Part shown: positions 52,546-63,105 of the stretch, in pieces
Position numbering within the stretch: position 1 is the first letter of the stretch
Layout: every line of letters begins with the position of its first letter
Source: Massilia polaris
GTDB lineage: Bacteria; Pseudomonadota; Gammaproteobacteria; Burkholderiales; Burkholderiaceae_D
Assembly: GCF_012927275.1 (NCBI RefSeq)
Contig: NZ_JABBGG010000016.1
Location: 1 to 63,270 of the forward strand
Reading direction: 5' to 3'
Length of the DNA: 63,270 nt
Translations under genes and position numbers: made by a program
The notes under the pieces: generated by a model
Told to the model about the DNA's origin: nothing
What the model saw: the letters and a program-made list of their open reading frames with translations, nothing else
Database searches by the model: none

Positions 52546-53199
52546 ATGCAATCACCACTCTCGCTTCAAGTCCGCGCTCCAGATGCGACAGCCACCAGGA
52601 CGCATGCGCGGCTATCAGTGCGTTTGCGTGAAGAAACTCGGCTTGAACACAAATCCGTGGAGGCGGCGTGCGGCCTTCCTGGCGCTGTTCGGCACCTCTC
52701 AGACTACAGCAGTTGCCTCCTCGACTTTTATGGCATCTTCAGTCCAATTGAGCGGCACATCGCCACGTTCACGGAATGCTCATATCTGGGCCTGTCGATG
52801 CAAAAGCGTGCCCGGGTGCCGTACCTGCAACAGGATCTTCGGCTATTGAATGTGGATCCTGATTCGTGGCGGGAAGCGCCAGCCCAAGCCTTACCCGCTC
52901 TGCCTCAGTTCGCTTTTGCTCTCGGCGCACTGTATGTCCTGGAAGGATCGACCTTGGGGGGGCAAATCATCATGTCAGCGCTACAGGCACAACTGCGTAT
53001 CCCGGTCGACATACCGGGCGGTTTTTTTGCGGGCAGGGGCGAGCAAACCGGACCGCTCTGGAATGAATTTCGAGACGCTCTGGACGTCTACGGGCAACAG
53101 TATCCCGAGGCGTCCGCAGACGTGATTGTCGGAGCAAAACGCACATTCGACGCGATTGGAAATTGGTTTAATGAAAACAACAACCGATTCAGCTCATGA
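52546..53199 (+). CDS. bphO: Heme oxygenase supplying biliverdin to the bacteriophytochrome
   Basis: This 217-residue enzyme opens heme to biliverdin. The N-terminal helix reads LREETRLEHKSVEAA, with His35 as the proximal heme ligand. FALGALYVLEGSTLGGQII is the distal-helix glycine region. GGAAAGACCACA precedes the ATG. Its stop overlaps the start of the bacteriophytochrome gene (ATGA), so enzyme and apoprotein are made together. Confidence 0.9.
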   Translation: MQSPLSLQVRAPDATATRTHARLSVRLREETRLEHKSVEAACGLPGAVRHLSDYSSCLLDFYGIFSPIERHIATFTECSYLGLSMQKRARVPYLQQDLRLLNVDPDSWREAPAQALPALPQFAFALGALYVLEGSTLGGQIIMSALQAQLRIPVDIPGGFFAGRGEQTGPLWNEFRDALDVYGQQYPEASADVIVGAKRTFDAIGNWFNENNNRFSS

Positions 53200-56033
53200 A
53201 CGCCGTTGATCAGCCAACGTTGGCAGTGGCCGGCCAAGACGCTTTTGCATCCTGCGAGCGCGAGCCGATTCACACACCAGGTTCAATCCAGCCACATGGC
53301 ATTTTGCTCGCAGCATGCATGCAGGACCTGTGCATCACGCATCTCAGCGGAAACTTTGAAGAGTCCACGGGGCTGTCTGCCCGTGGAATTTTGGGCACAT
53401 CGCTCTCCAGCGTTCTTGGACAAGATGCATGCACGGCTATACTTGCGGCCCTCGACAGCGAGAGCTACGCACCTGCCAACGCGCTGGTTGTCAACATACC
53501 GTTTCCCAAGCAGCCAAGGCGCAATGTACTGGCACATCGCATAGACGATGTACTGGTCGTGGAAATTGAAGATGCCTCGCTCGCGCCTGAGCAGGAGACT
53601 TCACTATATCGCGCGCATGTCATCATTCAAGGCTTGCGGCGTGCTTCCTCGCTCGAACAACTTTGTAACGGCGCGGTCAACGAAATCCGCTCGCTCACCG
53701 GGTACGACCGGGTCATGATCTACCGTTTCACCGAAGCTGGCCACGGTCAAGTCATCGCGGAGGATATGCGCGCCGACCAGCCCTCGTATTTTAATCTTTA
53801 TTATCCCGCTTCCGACATCCCGCCGCAGGCAAGACGCCTTTACCTTCTCCAGCGCGTACGCACGATCGTCGATATGAGCTATCGGCCAGTTCCAATCCTG
53901 GTCGCTCCAGATTTCAAAGGGGAGTCAACGCTCGATATGACCTTATGCGGCTTACGCAGCGTTTCGCCGGCCCATATTGAATACATGCACAATATGGGAG
54001 TCGGCGCGACCTTGGGCATTTCGCTCATTCGTGACGGCCAGCTTTGGGGAATGGTGGTATGCCACCATCTGGAGCCACGCAAACCGTCGACCGCTGTCCG
54101 CAGCCTGTGCGATGTGATCGGGCAGCTGCTCTCTTTGTTGATCGTGCAGGTTGCCGAAGGCGAGAAGCTCAAGAAGAACATCGAGCAACAAAAACTGCTC
54201 CAACGCATCGGGAATTCCCTCGATAGCGCCCCCACCGTTATGCAAGCTCTGCGCGACAGTGCCGATGATCTGATGCAGCTTGTACATGCCGATGGTGCAT
54301 TGATTCGGCTTGGTGGGCAACAACATATGCTGGGCCGCGTTCCCGAGGATGCCGCAAAAGTGGCTTGCCTAATAAAAAAACTGCACTCGGAATTTAGCGA
54401 TGAGCCCATAACGATCGAAGCACTCGGAGAGCTTCATCCCGAATTCCGCGAATTGAGTGACGTGGCCAGTGGATTGCTGTTTCTCCCTCTTGCCAACAAT
54501 CCGGGGGACGCCATCATCTGGTTTCGCGGTGAGCTTGCCCGCACAGTCGAATGGGCCGGCGACCCCAACAAAAGCATCGATATCAGCCTTGATACGGGCC
54601 GGGTCTCCCCCCGCAAATCGTTTCGCGCCTGGCGGGAAGTTGTGAGGGGACACTCGCTGCCATGGGCCGTTACCGACCAGGGCGCCGCGCTTGACCTGCG
54701 GCGCTTGATTTCCTCGGGGCTTTTGCATAATGCCGAAGCCCATCTGGCCAGGCTCAGCATTGTCGATCCGCTCACTGGATTGGCCAACCGACGCGCACTG
54801 GATGGCCGGATCGCCCTATGGCAAGCCGGCAAGGCCAATACTGCAGCGATGTTGATCCTGTTCGATCTGAACCGATTTAAGAACGTCAATGATTCGCTCG
54901 GACACGCTGCGGGCGACGAACTGCTGATGCAAGTGGCTCAACGCATTGGCCAATCAATTCCTCCGCAGTACATTTATGCACGATTGGGAGGCGATGAATT
55001 CGTCGTCTTTGGCGATAGCGACGCGGTCGCCAATGCCGAAGACATTGCAAAAAATATCCTGGCAATGTTTGATGAGGCCTTCGTGCTCAATGGCGAACCT
55101 TATCGTGCCAGCACCAGCATCGGGATTGCGGTGACAAGCAACGGCAGCGGTAAGGACATTCTAAGGGAAGCCGATGCGGCCATGTATGCGTCGAAGCGAC
55201 AAGGTGGCAGCACCGCCGTGTTCTTTGACGAAACGCATCACAAAATTGCGCTCGACAAGCTCGAAGTCGAACAGGATCTTTTTCTCGCATTGACAAAGAA
55301 AGAATTTCGTCTCGTGTATCAAGCCCTGGTCGAGGTTTCGACCAAAAAAATCTATGGGTTTGAAGCGCTGATCCGGTGGGAGCATTCCAGACGAGGCTGG
55401 ATTTCCCCGGTCGAGTTCATTCCACGAGCGGAGCAAACAGGTCTCATCATCCAAATCGGTGACTGGGTTCTGGGCGAGGCAGTGCGACAAGCTGCTTGCT
55501 GGCGACGCATGGGCCACCAGATCGTAGTTTCCATTAACGTTGCCGCCCTCCAACTTTCGCTCGGTGACTTTGCTTCGCGCGTGAGCAAGGTTCTTCAAAG
55601 TGAAGACCTGCCACCAGAAGCGATTTGCATCGAGATCACGGAAGGGACATTGATGGATACAGTCGCAATCCAGGAGCTTGAGCGGGTGCGGGATCTGGGC
55701 ATTGCGATATCGTTGGACGATTTCGGCACCGGTTATTCGTCGCTGTCTTATTTGCGCGCACTGCCGGTCGACATCATTAAAATTGATCGCAGCTTCGTCA
55801 CCCCCTTGGGCAATGACAAAAAAGCCTCGCAATTTTTTCGGGCCATTGTCGGCCTGATTCAAACGATTGAATTGAAGGTGTTGGCAGAAGGCGTGGAGAC
55901 GGAATTGCAGTGGCAGGAATTGAAGGATGCGGGTTGCAATGCAGCGCAGGGGTATCTGTTTTCCAAACCGGTCAGTGCTGCCAATGCCACACTGCTTTTG
56001 GATGGCCCCGCACCGCATAGCAGCCTGGTTTGA
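53196..56033 (+). CDS. bphP: Bacteriophytochrome with GGDEF and EAL domains
   Basis: This 945-residue red/far-red photoreceptor should control c-di-GMP. In the PAS region Cys20 (ASCEREPIHTPGSIQPHG) is the biliverdin attachment site. The GAF domain has YPASDIPPQARRLY at 204-216 and the conserved His260. The PHY domain has the tongue motif SPRKSF near 481-486. The diguanylate cyclase domain keeps GGDEF at 598-602 but lacks an RxxD inhibitory site. The phosphodiesterase domain keeps EAL at 723-725, DDFGTG at 841-846 and AEGVE near 897. Both catalytic domains look intact, so either activity is possible, switched by light. No membrane segment is seen. Confidence 0.94.
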   Translation: MNAVDQPTLAVAGQDAFASCEREPIHTPGSIQPHGILLAACMQDLCITHLSGNFEESTGLSARGILGTSLSSVLGQDACTAILAALDSESYAPANALVVNIPFPKQPRRNVLAHRIDDVLVVEIEDASLAPEQETSLYRAHVIIQGLRRASSLEQLCNGAVNEIRSLTGYDRVMIYRFTEAGHGQVIAEDMRADQPSYFNLYYPASDIPPQARRLYLLQRVRTIVDMSYRPVPILVAPDFKGESTLDMTLCGLRSVSPAHIEYMHNMGVGATLGISLIRDGQLWGMVVCHHLEPRKPSTAVRSLCDVIGQLLSLLIVQVAEGEKLKKNIEQQKLLQRIGNSLDSAPTVMQALRDSADDLMQLVHADGALIRLGGQQHMLGRVPEDAAKVACLIKKLHSEFSDEPITIEALGELHPEFRELSDVASGLLFLPLANNPGDAIIWFRGELARTVEWAGDPNKSIDISLDTGRVSPRKSFRAWREVVRGHSLPWAVTDQGAALDLRRLISSGLLHNAEAHLARLSIVDPLTGLANRRALDGRIALWQAGKANTAAMLILFDLNRFKNVNDSLGHAAGDELLMQVAQRIGQSIPPQYIYARLGGDEFVVFGDSDAVANAEDIAKNILAMFDEAFVLNGEPYRASTSIGIAVTSNGSGKDILREADAAMYASKRQGGSTAVFFDETHHKIALDKLEVEQDLFLALTKKEFRLVYQALVEVSTKKIYGFEALIRWEHSRRGWISPVEFIPRAEQTGLIIQIGDWVLGEAVRQAACWRRMGHQIVVSINVAALQLSLGDFASRVSKVLQSEDLPPEAICIEITEGTLMDTVAIQELERVRDLGIAISLDDFGTGYSSLSYLRALPVDIIKIDRSFVTPLGNDKKASQFFRAIVGLIQTIELKVLAEGVETELQWQELKDAGCNAAQGYLFSKPVSAANATLLLDGPAPHSSLV

Positions 56034-56672: not shown

Positions 56673-57577
56673 ATGATGGATTTAAATGACGTGGCACTGT
56701 TTGTTCAGGTAATTCGCGCCGGCAGCTTCGCCGAAGCCGCTCGGCGATTGGGCATCCCCTCCAATAGCGTGAGTCGGCGCATACAAGAATTGGAACGCCG
56801 AATGGGCGTCGCCGTGATACTGCGCTCGACGCGCAAGCTGGTGCCTACGGATGCGGGCCGAACCCTGTATGAGCGATGCGCGGAGCCAATCGGATCGTTA
56901 ATCGAGGCATCGCAGGAACTCGCCAATGGTAGCGAATTGACGACGGGAACGCTGCGCGTTGCCGCGCCCGCCGATTTTTTTCAGTTGGTTTCTCATGGAC
57001 TGGATCGCTGAGTTTTCTCGCGGCCCATCCACAAATTCGCATCGAATTCGTCCTAAGCGACGCCCGTGCAGACCTGTTGGGCGACGGCATTGACCTCGCA
57101 CTTCGCGGCGGCAAGATCCTTGAGCCGGACTTGGTCGCACGAAAAATCGGGACCAGCCGCTTCGTACTGGTGGCAAGCCCAGCGTATCTCGCTGCGCGCG
57201 GCTTGCCGACCACACTTGAGGATCTGGAGAGTCACGATTGCATCACGGCCCCGAGCCAGGCAGGGCGCTCGTCGTGGTCACTGGACAGCCCGACCGGGCC
57301 AGTGGTAGTCAATGTCGAGGGGCGATTTAGCGCCAACATTGCGCAAGTCATGCTCAATGCCTCGCTCGCGAACTTGGGAGTCGCGCTGGTGCCGACGATG
57401 ATGTCGGCGCCTCACCTGCACACGGGACGGTTGCAAGAAGTTCTGCCAGCGTATGGGCGGGATGGCCTTTGCATTCACCTTGTCCTTGTGTATGTGAGAC
57501 GCATATACCTGCCGCGTGCTATCAGCGCCTTCATCGATTTCATGATTGTAAAAGTGCAAGCGCATGGACTGGGCTAG
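56673..57577 (+). pseudogene. LysR-type regulator with two single-base frameshifts
   Basis: The first frame gives a normal winged HTH (MDLNDVALFVQVIRAGSFAEAARRLGIPSNSVSRRIQELE) and stops at 57009-57011. The next frame gives MDWIAEF, and the third gives FLAAHPQIRIEFVLSDARADLLGDGIDLALRGG and the rest of the effector domain to 57577. One extra C near 56994 and one extra T in the TTTT at 57013-57016 explain both shifts. Without them the protein would be about 300 residues, normal for the family. It would have controlled the divergent isochorismatase gene, now also broken. Confidence 0.82.
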
Positions 57578-58461: not shown

Positions 58462-60300
58462 TTACTTAACCACGTTGACGATGACGGTGGTTTCCGACAG
58501 GTTACCGGCCTTGTCCATGGCGGTCGCCTTGATCGTGTGCGGCCCAGCGGTGAACAGCGACGCCTGCCAGTTGTAGGCCAGCGTACCGCCCTTGCCGTAA
58601 GCGCGCAGGACGCCGTTGATCCGGATCTGCTGGCGAATGCTGGCGACGGCGAAGTTGTCGGTCGCAGTGACGCTGATCGCGACGGTGCCGGAAACGTTGC
58701 CGGCGACCGGATTGATGATCTTGACCGTTGGCTTGACCGTGTCGACCGTCGAGTCGACAGGCCCCGGAGCCGGCGCGACGGCCGCGTTGGCAACGTTCAC
58801 CGCGACCGTGGACGACGAGCCCGAGCTGCCCGCAGCATCGTATGCAACGGCGACCAGGTTGGCCATGCCGTTCGCGACCCCGGTCGAATCCCAGCTGAAG
58901 CTGTACGGTGCGGCGGTGTCGACCGCGACGACGGTGCCATTGACCGTCAGCTCGACACGCGCGACGCCAACGTTGTCCGCAGCGCTGGCGTTCACGGCTA
59001 CCGCGCCCGAGACCGACGTGCTGCCCAGCGGCGCCGAGATCGATGCCGTTGGCTTGGTAATATCGACCGATGCCCCGTAGGTTTTCGCGGCGGCAACAGC
59101 TGCCGCTGCATTGACGCGGCCATGTCCGAAGTAGACGTCGCGTCCGGCGGTGCCGAGGTCGACTGCGGTCGAATATAGCAGCGACTGGATCGTGTCAGGG
59201 GCCAGGTCAGGCCGCGCCGACATCATCATTGCCGCCACACCAGCGGCGATCGGGCTGGAGAACGAGGTGCCGTTGGTGCTCTTGTAGCTACCGTTGAGGC
59301 CGGTAGTCCAGATGCCGCTGCCGGGCGCGGCGAGCGACACTACCGCGCCGTAGCTCGAGAAGCTCGAACGCGCATCCGAGCTGGTCGTTGCCGATACCAC
59401 GATCAGCGCCGGATCCGCCGCGATCTTCTCGTCGACGTTTGCGTTACCAGCGGAAACAAATACCAGGCCACCCTTGCTCTTCATATAACGGGCGGCGCTC
59501 AAAATTGCCGAGCTTGCAGCCAGGCGGGCATAGCTGACGTTGGCGACGCGTGCGCCGTTGTCGGCAGCGTACGTGATACCGGCGGCGATCGTGCTGTACG
59601 ACGCGTAGCAGGAATTTTCGGCGGCGTTCCAGTATGCGATGCGCAGAGGCATGATCTTGGCAGCCCCAGCGACGCCTGCGACACCAATCCCGTTGTTCGA
59701 CGCACCGGCGGCGGCGCCTGCCACGGCAGTGCCATGGCCGCAGATGTCGGACATGTCGGTATTGTTGCCATAGATGTTGCGGCCCGCGACCAGGTTCGGC
59801 TTCAGGTCGGGGTGGCTCGACTCGATTCCCGAATCGAGGATGGCGATGGTCACGCCGGCGCCGCGCGACGAATCCCAGGCGGTGGCAGCGCCGATCTTGT
59901 TGACGTGCCATTGGCTGCCGATGTACGGATCATTCACCGCCATCGTGCTCTTGACGTGGCGGTCGAGTTCCGCATATTTGAATTCAGGACGGCGTTCGAG
60001 TTGCTTCAGGACTGATGCCTCCGACGCGTTGCTTGGCAGTTCGATGACATGCAGGTTGCTCTGGCCAACTTTCCTGGCCCTGCCGCCATGCGGCTTGAGC
60101 AGTTTGTCGAACGCTGCGGCCGACAAACCCGGCTTCACCTCGATCAGCACGCGGCCGCGCACAATCTGGTCGCCGATGCCGGCTTCGTACGGCGACGCCG
60201 CCATGGCAGTGTTTGCTGAGAATGCACTGGCGCAAGCGACCGCGAGAACAGTCGCACGCAGGGGCAGCGAGGAGAAGCTAAAGGAGGAGGTAAAGACCAT
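58462..60300 (-). CDS. Secreted S8 (subtilisin-like) serine peptidase with Ig-like repeats
   Basis: This 612-residue exported protease has a signal peptide (LRATVLAVACASAFSANTAMAA). A prodomain of about 80 residues (VLIEVKPGLSAAAFDKLLKPHG) follows. The catalytic domain has Asp156 (AILDSGIESSHPD), His189 (CGHGTAVAG) and Ser346 (NGTSFSSPIAAG). Two C-terminal Ig-like domains (KPTASISAPL and KPTVKIINPV) would bind surfaces or substrates. It is a paralogue of the divergent gene at 61339. The leader carries a cyclic-di-GMP-I riboswitch and a hairpin over the Shine-Dalgarno sequence, so both its mRNA and translation may respond to c-di-GMP. Confidence 0.94.
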   Translation of the reverse strand: MVFTSSFSFSSLPLRATVLAVACASAFSANTAMAASPYEAGIGDQIVRGRVLIEVKPGLSAAAFDKLLKPHGGRARKVGQSNLHVIELPSNASEASVLKQLERRPEFKYAELDRHVKSTMAVNDPYIGSQWHVNKIGAATAWDSSRGAGVTIAILDSGIESSHPDLKPNLVAGRNIYGNNTDMSDICGHGTAVAGAAAGASNNGIGVAGVAGAAKIMPLRIAYWNAAENSCYASYSTIAAGITYAADNGARVANVSYARLAASSAILSAARYMKSKGGLVFVSAGNANVDEKIAADPALIVVSATTSSDARSSFSSYGAVVSLAAPGSGIWTTGLNGSYKSTNGTSFSSPIAAGVAAMMMSARPDLAPDTIQSLLYSTAVDLGTAGRDVYFGHGRVNAAAAVAAAKTYGASVDITKPTASISAPLGSTSVSGAVAVNASAADNVGVARVELTVNGTVVAVDTAAPYSFSWDSTGVANGMANLVAVAYDAAGSSGSSSTVAVNVANAAVAPAPGPVDSTVDTVKPTVKIINPVAGNVSGTVAISVTATDNFAVASIRQQIRINGVLRAYGKGGTLAYNWQASLFTAGPHTIKATAMDKAGNLSETTVIVNVVK

Positions 60301-60305
60301 GATAA

Positions 60306-60336
60306 CAATCCTGTCTAAAAAAAATGAACAGGATTG
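60306..60336 (-). promoter_or_regulatory. Hairpin sequestering the Shine-Dalgarno site of the minus-strand S8 gene
   Basis: CAATCCTGT at 60306-60314 pairs with ACAGGATTG at 60328-60336. On the minus strand the AGGA that serves the ATG at 60300 lies inside the stem, eight bases from the start. The pairing would block ribosome entry. Confidence 0.7.
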
Positions 60337-60402
60337 CTAAACAACCCAGTGCGTGCCGCGTCCGAATGCGGTCCCGCCCGCGCAATGATTGCGCCTGGTA
60401 AT

Positions 60403-60489
60403 GCCTGGCAGTCCTGCCGTCATAGGGGAAAGGACCCGTTAGACCGTTGACTTTGCGTCCTCCTCTTTCGAGGAGTTTGCCTTTTGCAG
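60403..60489 (-). promoter_or_regulatory. Cyclic-di-GMP-I (GEMM) riboswitch aptamer
   Basis: On the minus strand AAAGGCAAACTCCTCGAAAG is followed by AGGAGGACGCAAAGTC, CGGTCTAA and GACGGCAGGACTGCCAGG. These are the GAAA-capped P2 hairpin, the ACGCAAAG junction and the second hairpin of the class. The aptamer ends about 100 bases before the start codon of the S8 peptidase. Expected length and order of conserved blocks are all present. Confidence 0.85.
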
Positions 60490-61113
60490 AGAGCTGTTAC
60501 TTTACCCCAGCTAAATACCTGCGGCAATAACCTTAAAAATAAAATCGTGTAACCACACAACATATTGACCGCGCTGTTCAACTTACTCATAGCAACCTTT
60601 ACTTCAATTATTATCAAATCCAAATAATTATAATAATTTTGATAGCGATTCTGTAGTTTCCAATACGAAACAGAGAAGCGCAGTCTATTCACGCGTCGTT
60701 TGAAACAACCCTATAGGACGTGCCATAGCGGCAATTGAATTTCAACCAGAATAACGAAAAGTGTTATCCATCAGGTAATGCATTGAGATGTGTGGATTGC
60801 ATCGAAAGCCTTCGCACGCCCAGTGGCAAGTTCGGACCGGGCGTCATTCTGCATCGCCACCCACTCTTGCGGTGATATATCGCGCTCGCTCATCAAATAG
60901 TTTGAAGCTATAAATAATAATTTAGCCAACATAGTCAAATACAAAATTCCGTTTTCAATTAGGAAATGATCGTAAACGTTTAATCAAATTTTTCCTCTAG
61001 ATAACTTATTGTCAGGGGTCAATTTGTTACAATTTAATTGGGGAAATTTGAACAGAGTTTACGTAATTCAATTGTTTCTGGGAATATTTCACGGTAGCAT
61101 TCAATCCGCAATC
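60490..61113. other. AT-rich region between the two divergent riboswitch leaders
   Basis: About 620 bases have much lower GC than the neighbouring genes and no convincing coding frame; it must contain the promoters of both S8 transcripts. A/T runs are frequent (for example around 60580-60640 and 60900-61040). I see no clear inverted repeat that would name a regulator. Confidence 0.55.
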
Positions 61114-61200
61114 TGTTAAAGGTAAACCCCGCGAAAGCGTGGGGACGCAAAGTCATCGGTCTAACGAGCCCAAGGCTCCAAGACGGCAGGACTGCCAGAC
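61114..61200 (+). promoter_or_regulatory. Cyclic-di-GMP-I (GEMM) riboswitch aptamer
   Basis: The sequence reads TTAAAGGTAAACCCCGCGAA, then AGCGTGGGGACGCAAAGTC, CGGTCTAACG and AAGACGGCAGGACTGCCAG. It has the same block order as the copy on the other strand, including the GCGAAAGC-capped hairpin and ACGCAAAG. It ends about 140 bases before the S8 start at 61339. Confidence 0.85.
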
Positions 61201-61298
61201 CACGCAAGCCAGACCCGGCAAGGCCGCGTCAGCCATGGATGAGACGCACGCGGCGATTAAGCGCCCTCGAGTGTGCAGCACCCACAGCGTTATCCAGC

Positions 61299-61334
61299 AG
61301 TCCTGTTGGAGCATTTATTTTCGAAAACAGGACT
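61299..61334 (+). promoter_or_regulatory. Hairpin sequestering the Shine-Dalgarno site of the plus-strand S8 gene
   Basis: AGTCCTGTT at 61299-61307 pairs with AACAGGACT at 61326-61334. The AGGA at 61329-61332, six bases before ATG 61339, is inside the stem. The arms match the equivalent hairpin of the divergent gene in sequence as well as in position. Confidence 0.72.
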
Positions 61335-61338
61335 ACAC

Positions 61339-63105
61339 ATGCAAAACCATCTGAACACCTCGTCGCCGCGCACGTCGGCACCTGCCCGCCTGGCGTTTGC
61401 TGCATCGATCGCAATCGCCAGCGCTGCCATGATCCCGGCCGGCGCACATGCTGAACAGCCTGAAAAATTTGCCGCTGGGCGCATCCTGGTCTCGCCGCGC
61501 GCCGGATTGCCTGCCGCTGAATTCAACAAGATCATCAAGACCCACGGCGCCCACGCCGCGCGCAAGCTCGGCGGCATCAATGTGTATGTCGTCGACATGC
61601 CGCCTGGGCGCGAAAAGGCCCTGCTGCAGGCGCTTGAACGCAACCCGCACGTCAAGTTCGTCGAACTCGACGGCGAAGTGACGATGCAAATGACCCCCTC
61701 GGATACCTACTACAGCACCGCCTGGCACCTGCCGAAGATCGGCGCCCCGGCGGCCTGGGATGTTGCCACCGGCAGCGGTGTCACCATCGCCATCCTGGAC
61801 GGCGGCGTCGAGGCGTCGCACCCGGACTTGGCCGGCCACATGGTTCCGGGATGGAATTTCTTCGACAACAACAGCAACACCGCCGACGTCAACGGCCACG
61901 GTACCAAGGTCGCCGGTGTGGCCGCTGCAATTGGTAACAACGCTGTCGGCGCAACCGGCGCTGCGTGGAACGCCAAAATCATGCCAATGCGTATTAGCGA
62001 TGGCGCTGGCAACATCACTTACTACAGCACTGTGGCAAATGCACTGACTTGGGCGGCCGATCACGGTGCCCGCGTGGCAAACATCAGCTACATCGTGTCG
62101 CACGTCGCAGCGGTGCAAACCGCGGCGCAATATATGCGAAGCAAAGGCGGCGTGGTTGTGGCTTCTGCCGGCAACACAGGAGCCTACACTGCCAACGCAA
62201 ACACATCGGCAATAATTACTGTTGCCGGCACCGACTCGTCCGATGTGCGTGCCAGCTGGTCGGCCTATGGCCCTATCGTCGATGTCGCCGCGCCTGGCGT
62301 TAGCATCCGCACCACCGCCGTCGGCGGCGCCTATGGCTCGTACAGCGGCACGTCGTTCTCCAGTCCGCTAACTGCAGGCGTGGTCGCACTAATGTTGTCC
62401 GCCAATCCCGCATTGCAGCCTTCCCAGGTCGACAGCATCCTGGCCTCGACCGCGGACGACAAAGGCACCGCCGGCCGCGACGACTACTACGGCTACGGCC
62501 GCATCAATGCCACCCGCGCTATCGCTGCCGCCAAGGCAGCGGTAACCAGCGACACCAGCGTACCGGTCGTCTCGGCCACGGTGCCGTCGGCTACCGTCAA
62601 GGGCATCACGACCGTCAGCGCGACGGCGACCGACAATGTCGGCGTAACCCGTGTCGAACTGTATGCCGGCAGCACGTTGGTCGCCAGCGATACGGCATCC
62701 CCGTACAGCTTCAGCTGGGACTCAACCACGCGTGCCGACGGCGCCACCTCGCTTGTCGTCAAGGCCTATGATGCAGCCGGCAACGTTGGCTCGAAGACCC
62801 TGAGCGTTACAGTCGCCAACAACACGATTGCCGATACCACTGCTCCGGTGGTCACCATCGGTAATCCGAAAGCCGGCACCACGGTCGCCGGAAATGTCGG
62901 CGTGACGGTCTCGGCCAGCGACAACGTCGCAGTCACCAGCACCAGCCTGTACATCGACGGTTCGCTCAAGGCAACCGGCAACAGCTCACTGTCCTACACC
63001 TGGAATAGCCGCAAGGGACCGAAAGGGCTGCACACGATCTCGGCCGTGGCGCGCGATGGGGCCGGCAACACCAAAACCCAGGCGGTGCAGGTCACCGTGA
63101 ACTAA
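61339..63105 (+). CDS. Secreted S8 (subtilisin-like) serine peptidase with Ig-like repeats
   Basis: This 588-residue exported protease has a signal peptide (LAFAASIAIASAAMIPAGAHAE). A prodomain (ILVSPRAGLPAAEFNKIIKTHG) follows. The catalytic Asp154 (AILDGGVEASHPD), His187 (NGHGTKVAG) and Ser339 (SGTSFSSPLTAG) are all present. Two Ig-like domains (VSATATDNVGVTRVELYAG; KAGTTVAGNVGVTVSASDN) follow. The ATG at 61339 is set by the signal peptide and AGGA; the upstream 22 codons of the open frame overlap the leader hairpin. It has the same plan as the divergent paralogue and the same riboswitch-type leader. An IS3-type element end lies 40 bases after its stop. Confidence 0.94.
   Translation: MQNHLNTSSPRTSAPARLAFAASIAIASAAMIPAGAHAEQPEKFAAGRILVSPRAGLPAAEFNKIIKTHGAHAARKLGGINVYVVDMPPGREKALLQALERNPHVKFVELDGEVTMQMTPSDTYYSTAWHLPKIGAPAAWDVATGSGVTIAILDGGVEASHPDLAGHMVPGWNFFDNNSNTADVNGHGTKVAGVAAAIGNNAVGATGAAWNAKIMPMRISDGAGNITYYSTVANALTWAADHGARVANISYIVSHVAAVQTAAQYMRSKGGVVVASAGNTGAYTANANTSAIITVAGTDSSDVRASWSAYGPIVDVAAPGVSIRTTAVGGAYGSYSGTSFSSPLTAGVVALMLSANPALQPSQVDSILASTADDKGTAGRDDYYGYGRINATRAIAAAKAAVTSDTSVPVVSATVPSATVKGITTVSATATDNVGVTRVELYAGSTLVASDTASPYSFSWDSTTRADGATSLVVKAYDAAGNVGSKTLSVTVANNTIADTTAPVVTIGNPKAGTTVAGNVGVTVSASDNVAVTSTSLYIDGSLKATGNSSLSYTWNSRKGPKGLHTISAVARDGAGNTKTQAVQVTVN

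Follow-up and report, generated by a model that had tools for sequence, protein, structure and literature searches.

Two divergently oriented genes for S8 subtilases in Massilia polaris, here called S8a and S8b, are each preceded by their own riboswitch of the c-di-GMP-I (GEMM-I) class, which we infer to respond to cyclic di-GMP (c-di-GMP). Both lie in a 63,270-nucleotide (nt) stretch of DNA (NCBI RefSeq assembly GCF_012927275.1, contig NZ_JABBGG010000016.1, positions 1–63,270), the whole of which is referred to below as the window. Homologous protease genes recur behind the same kind of aptamer in related genomes, and their leaders share an expression platform in which one RNA strand can pair either with the Shine-Dalgarno (SD) sequence or with the aptamer. 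We favour, somewhat more than we doubt it, the reading that the riboswitch would act as a translational OFF switch of the protease genes.

Two complete aptamers ahead of two subtilase genes

Comparison of the whole window with 4227 Rfam families using cmscan returned two matches at gathering level, both to the c-di-GMP-I family (RF01051, gathering cut-off 35 bits): the S8a aptamer at 60404..60491 on the reverse strand (71.2 bits, E 5.7e-12) and the S8b aptamer at 61111..61199 on the forward strand (62.9 bits, E 6e-10). Both fall within 60298–61341, the region in which a preliminary description of this DNA had placed a divergent pair of S8 genes with one such riboswitch each; the GEMM-I motifs that it quoted are present in both leaders, and the Infernal search with RF01051 that it proposed gave a significant covariance-model match in each. 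All 87 model positions (1–87) are aligned in both aptamers, which are thus complete with both hairpins and the junction core, and the alignment marks three non-standard pairs in the S8a aptamer and one in the S8b aptamer. The aptamers face apart with 619 nt between them, and the distance from aptamer to gene is 103 nt for S8a and 139 nt for S8b. As riboswitches they are unremarkable representatives of a known class; what is unusual is their target.

S8a (58462..60300, reverse strand, 612 amino acids; PF00082 at 6.4e-44) and S8b (61339..63105, forward strand, 588 amino acids; PF00082 at 1.7e-48), both also matching PF17957 and PF22148, are probably secreted S8 subtilases built from a prodomain, an S8 domain and immunoglobulin-like (Ig-like) domains. 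Pfam annotates the two proteins alike with Peptidase_S8, two stretches of Big_7 and a Fervidolysin-type prodomain, and they are 48% identical across 569 columns. The mechanically assigned open reading frame (ORF) of S8b starts with a GTG at 61273; we prefer the ATG at 61339–61341 because an SD sequence and a signal-peptide-like N-terminus are found there, as judged from the sequence. Such N-termini are recognisable by eye in both proteins, and their secretion is predicted. The motifs ILDSG/ILDGG, GHGT and GTSFSSP can be read in the translations, and we take these to be the catalytic Asp, His and Ser motifs of subtilases. By sequence, the nearest solved structure to S8b is thermitase (1thm; E 2.6e-56, residues 119–395): the S8 domain and the Asp, His and Ser motifs are common to the window proteases, thermitase and other S8 subtilases, whereas the Ig-like C-terminal domains distinguish S8a and S8b. 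A scan of the proteases against NCBIfam gave no model at its cut-off.

Recurrence of the riboswitch–protease units

The genome of the window organism (4.52 Mb, 30 contigs) contains three RF01051 matches, and all three precede members of the S8a/S8b protease family; the third lies on contig C30 (209278–209364), ahead of a third homologue at 207325–209094. In this genome the S8 protease family would be the whole of the detected c-di-GMP-I regulon.

In order to place this arrangement in the same bacterial family, we considered 392 genomes, of which 153 contain RF01051 and 42 a homologue of S8b at E <= 1e-60, with at least 65 homologue matches in total (up to three candidates were scored per genome). 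The RF01051 matches listed across these genomes reached 6.8e-13 and were partly supplemented from other scans; one of the 176 listed is without a locus. Two of the 65 homologues are cut by contig ends, which leaves 63 assessable, and for 48 of these an aptamer lies on the same strand no more than 600 nt upstream (41 among the listed matches and 7 through scans of the individual loci). Direct control of S8 proteases by c-di-GMP, as the preliminary description had suggested, thus gains support from recurrence (3/3 in the genome, 48/63 in the family), the argument being one of sequence. Seen from the RNA side, 41 of the 160 family RF01051 matches considered among those listed, in 34 of 135 genomes, have a downstream ORF matching the S8a/S8b profile at E < 1e-100, and two further matches have a weaker one. 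Among the other downstream proteins, Pfam found Peptidase_S8 in 2 of the 98 scanned (out of 129 usable).

The remaining c-di-GMP-I targets in the bacterial family (loci L115–L142 and L193–L272) are often large proteins with lipoprotein-like starts that form a single family: measured against the first of the 98 aligned proteins, for which Pfam gives no match, 35 (this one counted) reach an identity of 48% or more. Other downstream genes encode SLT transglycosylases (12/98) and M12-type metallopeptidases (3/98, weak matches).

The mirrored arrangement of the window pair, which the preliminary description had put at the centre, is real at this locus, but does not extend to a general feature: of six close pairs of RF01051 matches tabulated (<4 kb apart), five are in tandem and only the window pair is divergent.

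A conserved hairpin over the Shine-Dalgarno sequence

Start codons for 43 S8 leaders were picked by their SD sequence and signal-peptide likeness, and 40 of these leaders were aligned over their last 61 nt; the three distant ones (from genomes G407, G086 and G074) were set aside there, in the accessibility folds and partly in the letter counts. The alignment contains two conserved blocks, an upstream anti-SD arm (of the GCAGUCCUGUU type) and an SD arm (of the AACAGGACU type), which together form a hairpin over the SD. Both window leaders have this expression platform, with an anti-SD arm of the GCAGUCCUG type. In the S8a leader (reverse strand), the anti-SD arm GCAAUCCUGUU at 60327..60337, identified from the sequence and the aligned block, is predicted by ViennaRNA to form a hairpin of -13.1 kcal/mol with the SD arm GACAGGAUUG at 60306..60315, a pairing also reflected in covariation across leaders. 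In the S8b leader (forward strand), the anti-SD arm GCAGUCCUGUU at 61297..61307, identified by pairing scan and aligned block, can form nine pairs with the SD arm AACAGGACU at 61326..61334 according to the pairing scan and folding.

The two arms vary jointly, with the combinations AGUCCUG/CAGGACU, AAUCCUG/CAGGAUU (the set that includes S8a) and GUUCUG/CAGAAC. Across the 43 leaders the best helix between the SD and upstream sequence has a mean score of 17.1, compared to 12.8 +/- 0.37 in 50 mononucleotide shuffles. Covariation of the hairpin in the 40 aligned leaders points the same way: cells altered on both sides number 28 against 12.3 +/- 3.9 in shuffles (reached in 0/500), and the covariation score is 0.183 against 0.126 (1/500), falling to 0.125 and 0.096 when the alignment of the arms is slid by one column. 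When the leaders are folded with the aptamer omitted, mean SD accessibility is 0.088 versus 0.336 with the upstream leader shuffled, and it is lower in 35 of the 40. The SD is thus held in an evolutionarily conserved hairpin, as is characteristic of a translational OFF switch.

The aptamer 3' strand as a possible second partner

The 3' strand of the aptamer, CAGGACUGC, closely resembles the SD arm in sequence, and the anti-SD arm is complementary to it (CAGGACUGCC): of the eight pairs counted, 22 of 40 leaders can form all and 32 of 40 can form seven or more. For S8b, the strand CGGCAGGACUGC (61184..61195, forward strand) can form 12 pairs, counting G-U, with the anti-SD arm, as found by pairing scan and folding; for S8a, the strand GGCAGGACUGCC (60407..60418, reverse strand) forms seven pairs in the pairing scan, after which a C.A mismatch and three more pairs can be read in the sequence. 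The letters of the anti-SD arm just before its core are kept as well (successively G in 33/40, C in 36/40 and A in 31/40). Neither the G nor the C has a regular partner in the SD arm, where the A is partly partnered; all three match the UGC of the aptamer.

We also measured how well the aptamer 3' strand can at best pair with the 140 nt that begin 10 nt downstream, relative to shuffled sequence. The S8 leaders score 20.1 against 14.2 (n=43), whereas other c-di-GMP-I leaders, a set that contains two whose S8 matches are weaker and some truncated at a contig end, score 16.5 against 16.25 (n=131), on average hardly above shuffles. The S8 leaders resemble the RF01051 class in their full-length matches above cut-off, and the window pair also in a G at the ligand-reading position; what sets them apart is an arm with complementarity to the SD as well as to the 3' strand of the aptamer. 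The alternative pairing would exclude the bound aptamer, since it uses up the GACU that closes the second helix of the aptamer.

Proposed switch mechanism and its alternatives

A translational OFF switch, a sign that the anatomy of the leaders favours and that the preliminary description had left unstated, would work as follows. With c-di-GMP bound, the aptamer 3' strand would be kept in its own helix, and the free anti-SD arm would fold onto the SD arm and block translation. At low c-di-GMP, the anti-SD arm, which is transcribed before the SD, would instead pair with the aptamer 3' strand; the SD would then stay out of the hairpin and the protease would be made. Extracellular proteolysis would thus rise as c-di-GMP falls, for example on leaving a surface or biofilm.

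Folding of the window leaders is in part consistent with this scheme. For S8b, the alternative helix is present in the unconstrained minimum-energy fold (-91.8 kcal/mol), while forcing the aptamer yields the SD hairpin (-79.6 kcal/mol), and at transcript lengths of 244–272 nt several SD bases are accessible at 0.5–0.9. For S8a, the alternative state lies 10–11 kcal/mol below the aptamer state before the SD is transcribed and 3–5 kcal/mol below it afterwards, the energy of the ligand being excluded from these values. At full length, the SD hairpin fold of S8a nevertheless wins over the alternative state (-80.4 vs -76.2 kcal/mol); as the alternative state is favoured until the SD is transcribed, S8a would be a kinetic switch.

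That last comparison is one of several results that weigh against a translational OFF switch. The alternative helix of S8a is interrupted by its C.A mismatch; in the alternative state of S8b two bases of the SD core are paired elsewhere, and in its free ensemble at 279 nt, the longest transcript modelled, SD accessibility is only 0–0.22. With the full leader at equilibrium, just 7 of 40 leaders gain more than 0.2 in SD accessibility relative to the closed state, and the mean accessibility of 0.176 remains below the shuffled control (0.336), so that no clean ON state appears; the ON step is for these reasons the least secure part of the proposal. Of the five measures of covariation, two are not above shuffles, namely pairs altered on both sides and additional pair types, and kinship among the sequences inflates the covariation counts. 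A promoter scan of the region gave one match where 2.0 were expected, nothing beyond chance. Finally, 15 of the 63 homologues, some of them copies in tandem arrays, are without an aptamer: no sub-cut-off aptamer was found ahead of the ten of these loci scanned in E-value mode, the other five being scanned at gathering level.

The leaders can also be read with the opposite sign, as a transcriptional ON switch in which the aptamer 3' strand and the anti-SD arm form the stem of a terminator with a U-run behind it, such that transcription would stop at low c-di-GMP and read through when the ligand is bound. We consider this unlikely, if worth keeping in view. It draws on CAUUUUUUUU directly after the S8a arm, on the runs of at least six U in 8 nt that 14 of 40 leaders, those of S8a and S8b among them, have after this arm, runs that themselves speak against a purely translational switch, and on a consensus scan of the region that gave five terminator-like sites against 1.0 +/- 1.0 in shuffled sequence, one of them beside each anti-SD arm; the pilM riboswitch for cyclic GMP-AMP (cGAMP) is reported to be a transcriptional ON precedent (PMC9262584). 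However, two of the five sites are the aptamer hairpin read from the opposite strand, the U-run is missing in 26 of 40 leaders and the stem would have to close over ~70–100 nt; moreover, the element that covaries is the SD hairpin, and termination and SD sequestration would have opposing signs if both were active. A fixed brake, with an SD hairpin that is constant (or answers to, for example, temperature) and an aptamer that acts weakly or not at all, is in our view improbable. In most models the SD hairpin does form regardless of the aptamer, with mean accessibility of 0.088 without it and 0.176 with it, and two homologues with no aptamer detected (G269, 102972; G322, 2635) have leaders with a similar CAGGGACU end; yet the aptamer is kept in 48 of 63 homologues, and conserved letters in the anti-SD arm match the aptamer while lacking a regular partner in the SD arm.

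Another cyclic dinucleotide, for example 3',3'-cGAMP, is a highly improbable ligand. A preference for cGAMP is known from GEMM-I variants in which A replaces G20, and the position scored in the S8 aptamers is presumably this ligand-reading base, which separates c-di-GMP from cGAMP binders. Of the 43 S8 leaders, 41 have a G here, and the two of the window are among these. The two that deviate, with A in a related leader (L165, G001:C41) and C in another (L144, G100:C7), may have a changed ligand preference, to judge from this base, and a deltaproteobacterial homologue has an aptamer of the variant family RF03167 upstream; these cases are what favours a different ligand. For the window leaders, a translational OFF switch answering to c-di-GMP remains the reading that we prefer.

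Distribution, gene tree and neighbouring genes

For the view beyond the bacterial family, 14 of 79 contigs were scanned for RNA families. Among the ten contigs from organisms other than Massilia, Duganella and Pseudoduganella with upstream sequence present, RF01051 lies ahead of the S8 gene in five (Propionivibrio limicola, two Burkholderiales metagenome-assembled genomes (MAGs), Candidatus Colwellia aromaticivorans and another gammaproteobacterial MAG) and four have none. The deltaproteobacterial MAG mentioned above carries the variant c-di-GMP-I-GGC (RF03167; L044, 3803–3882; 59.9 bits, cut-off 59). The Propionivibrio aptamer is ~420 nt ahead of the start codon, and by eye the leaders of these distant cases differ in look. 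Judged from these sequences, the pairing of riboswitch and S8 gene is patchy beyond the family, and linkage to the aptamer as a trait of the protease family everywhere was rejected: class-wide (369 genomes), only 1 of 15 loci outside the window genome has RF01051.

In a tree of 73 proteins, built quickly and with SH-aLRT (approximate likelihood ratio test) support alone and some long branches, the riboswitch label needs 11 changes compared to 18.3 in shuffles, which suggests that the riboswitch partly follows the genes and has been acquired or lost on several occasions. S8a falls with proteins of the same-genus genomes G003 and G005 and S8b with those of G100, G203 and G269; these separate clades, together with the 48% identity, rule out a fresh local duplication, and S8a and S8b appear to be old paralogues. 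In the related trio G353, G363 and G415, one copy has the aptamer and two have none, a pattern that looks like loss. Two loci without a detectable aptamer (L174, G269:C15 near 104711; L180, G322:C1 near 4092) have CAGGGACUCGCACC before the ATG, like their riboswitch-bearing neighbours, and the leader ends in G269 and G322 are possible relics after aptamer loss.

Within the window, a bacteriophytochrome with PAS, GAF, PHY, GGDEF and EAL domains (53196–56033, forward strand) lies 2.4 kb from the end of S8a and is a possible light-sensing c-di-GMP enzyme by its domains; as a conserved neighbour partner it was rejected, with no match at E <= 1e-150 in seven related genomes. What by eye resembles the gene of a LysR-type regulator (56673–57577, forward strand) is split into two ORFs in different frames (56673–57011 and 57077–57577) and may be frameshifted.

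Relation to known systems and implications

The preliminary description did not count a divergent protease pair among the standard GEMM-I targets, but a secreted protease as such is not wholly new. According to two reports, the secreted metalloprotease ZmpI/PPEP-1 (CD2830) of C. difficile lies behind the class-I riboswitch Cdi-1-12, is lowered by c-di-GMP and cuts adhesins that c-di-GMP raises (PMC6200980, PMC6447587). Cdi-1-12/zmpI is the closest analogue of the OFF switch proposed here, with a class-I c-di-GMP riboswitch before a secreted protease and the sign that we favour; it differs in being a zinc metalloprotease of a clostridium, whereas the present cases are S8 subtilases of Proteobacteria, often with several riboswitch–protease units per genome. 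A 2025 survey describes, in Bacillota, contiguous elements of the c-di-GMP-I class ahead of yebA, transglutaminase-like putative cysteine proteases (PMC12452182). Among the top literature matches listed, no title or start of abstract pointed to S8 proteases controlled by c-di-GMP-I riboswitches.

With regard to mechanism, Cd1 (OFF) and pilM (ON) have near-identical GEMM-I aptamers that act with either sign, and their logic of competing strands resembles that proposed for the S8 leaders: the Cd1 type, in which [PA] pairs with [TH] versus [AT], resembles the OFF switch proposed here (PMC9262584). Both of these are transcriptional as described there, whereas the competing element in the S8 leaders is read as the SD rather than a terminator.

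The part worth following is the wiring of one riboswitch to each protease, repeated and equipped with a common SD-competing platform. Taken as a whole, the picture for these Betaproteobacteria would be of a single secreted subtilase family, often multiplied, under gene-by-gene c-di-GMP-I control, in which the aptamer 3' strand mimics the SD arm and a fall in c-di-GMP frees extracellular proteolysis without a protein regulator; we advance this tentatively, its chances being close to even. One strand that chooses between aptamer and SD would also be a simple design for c-di-GMP reporters. As to which enzymes remodel the biofilm, or allow cells to leave it, when c-di-GMP falls, and by which route, the riboswitch–protease units would offer a direct and testable route with no intermediate protein regulator, and the 48 of 63 homologues that carry an aptamer allow it to be compared across species.

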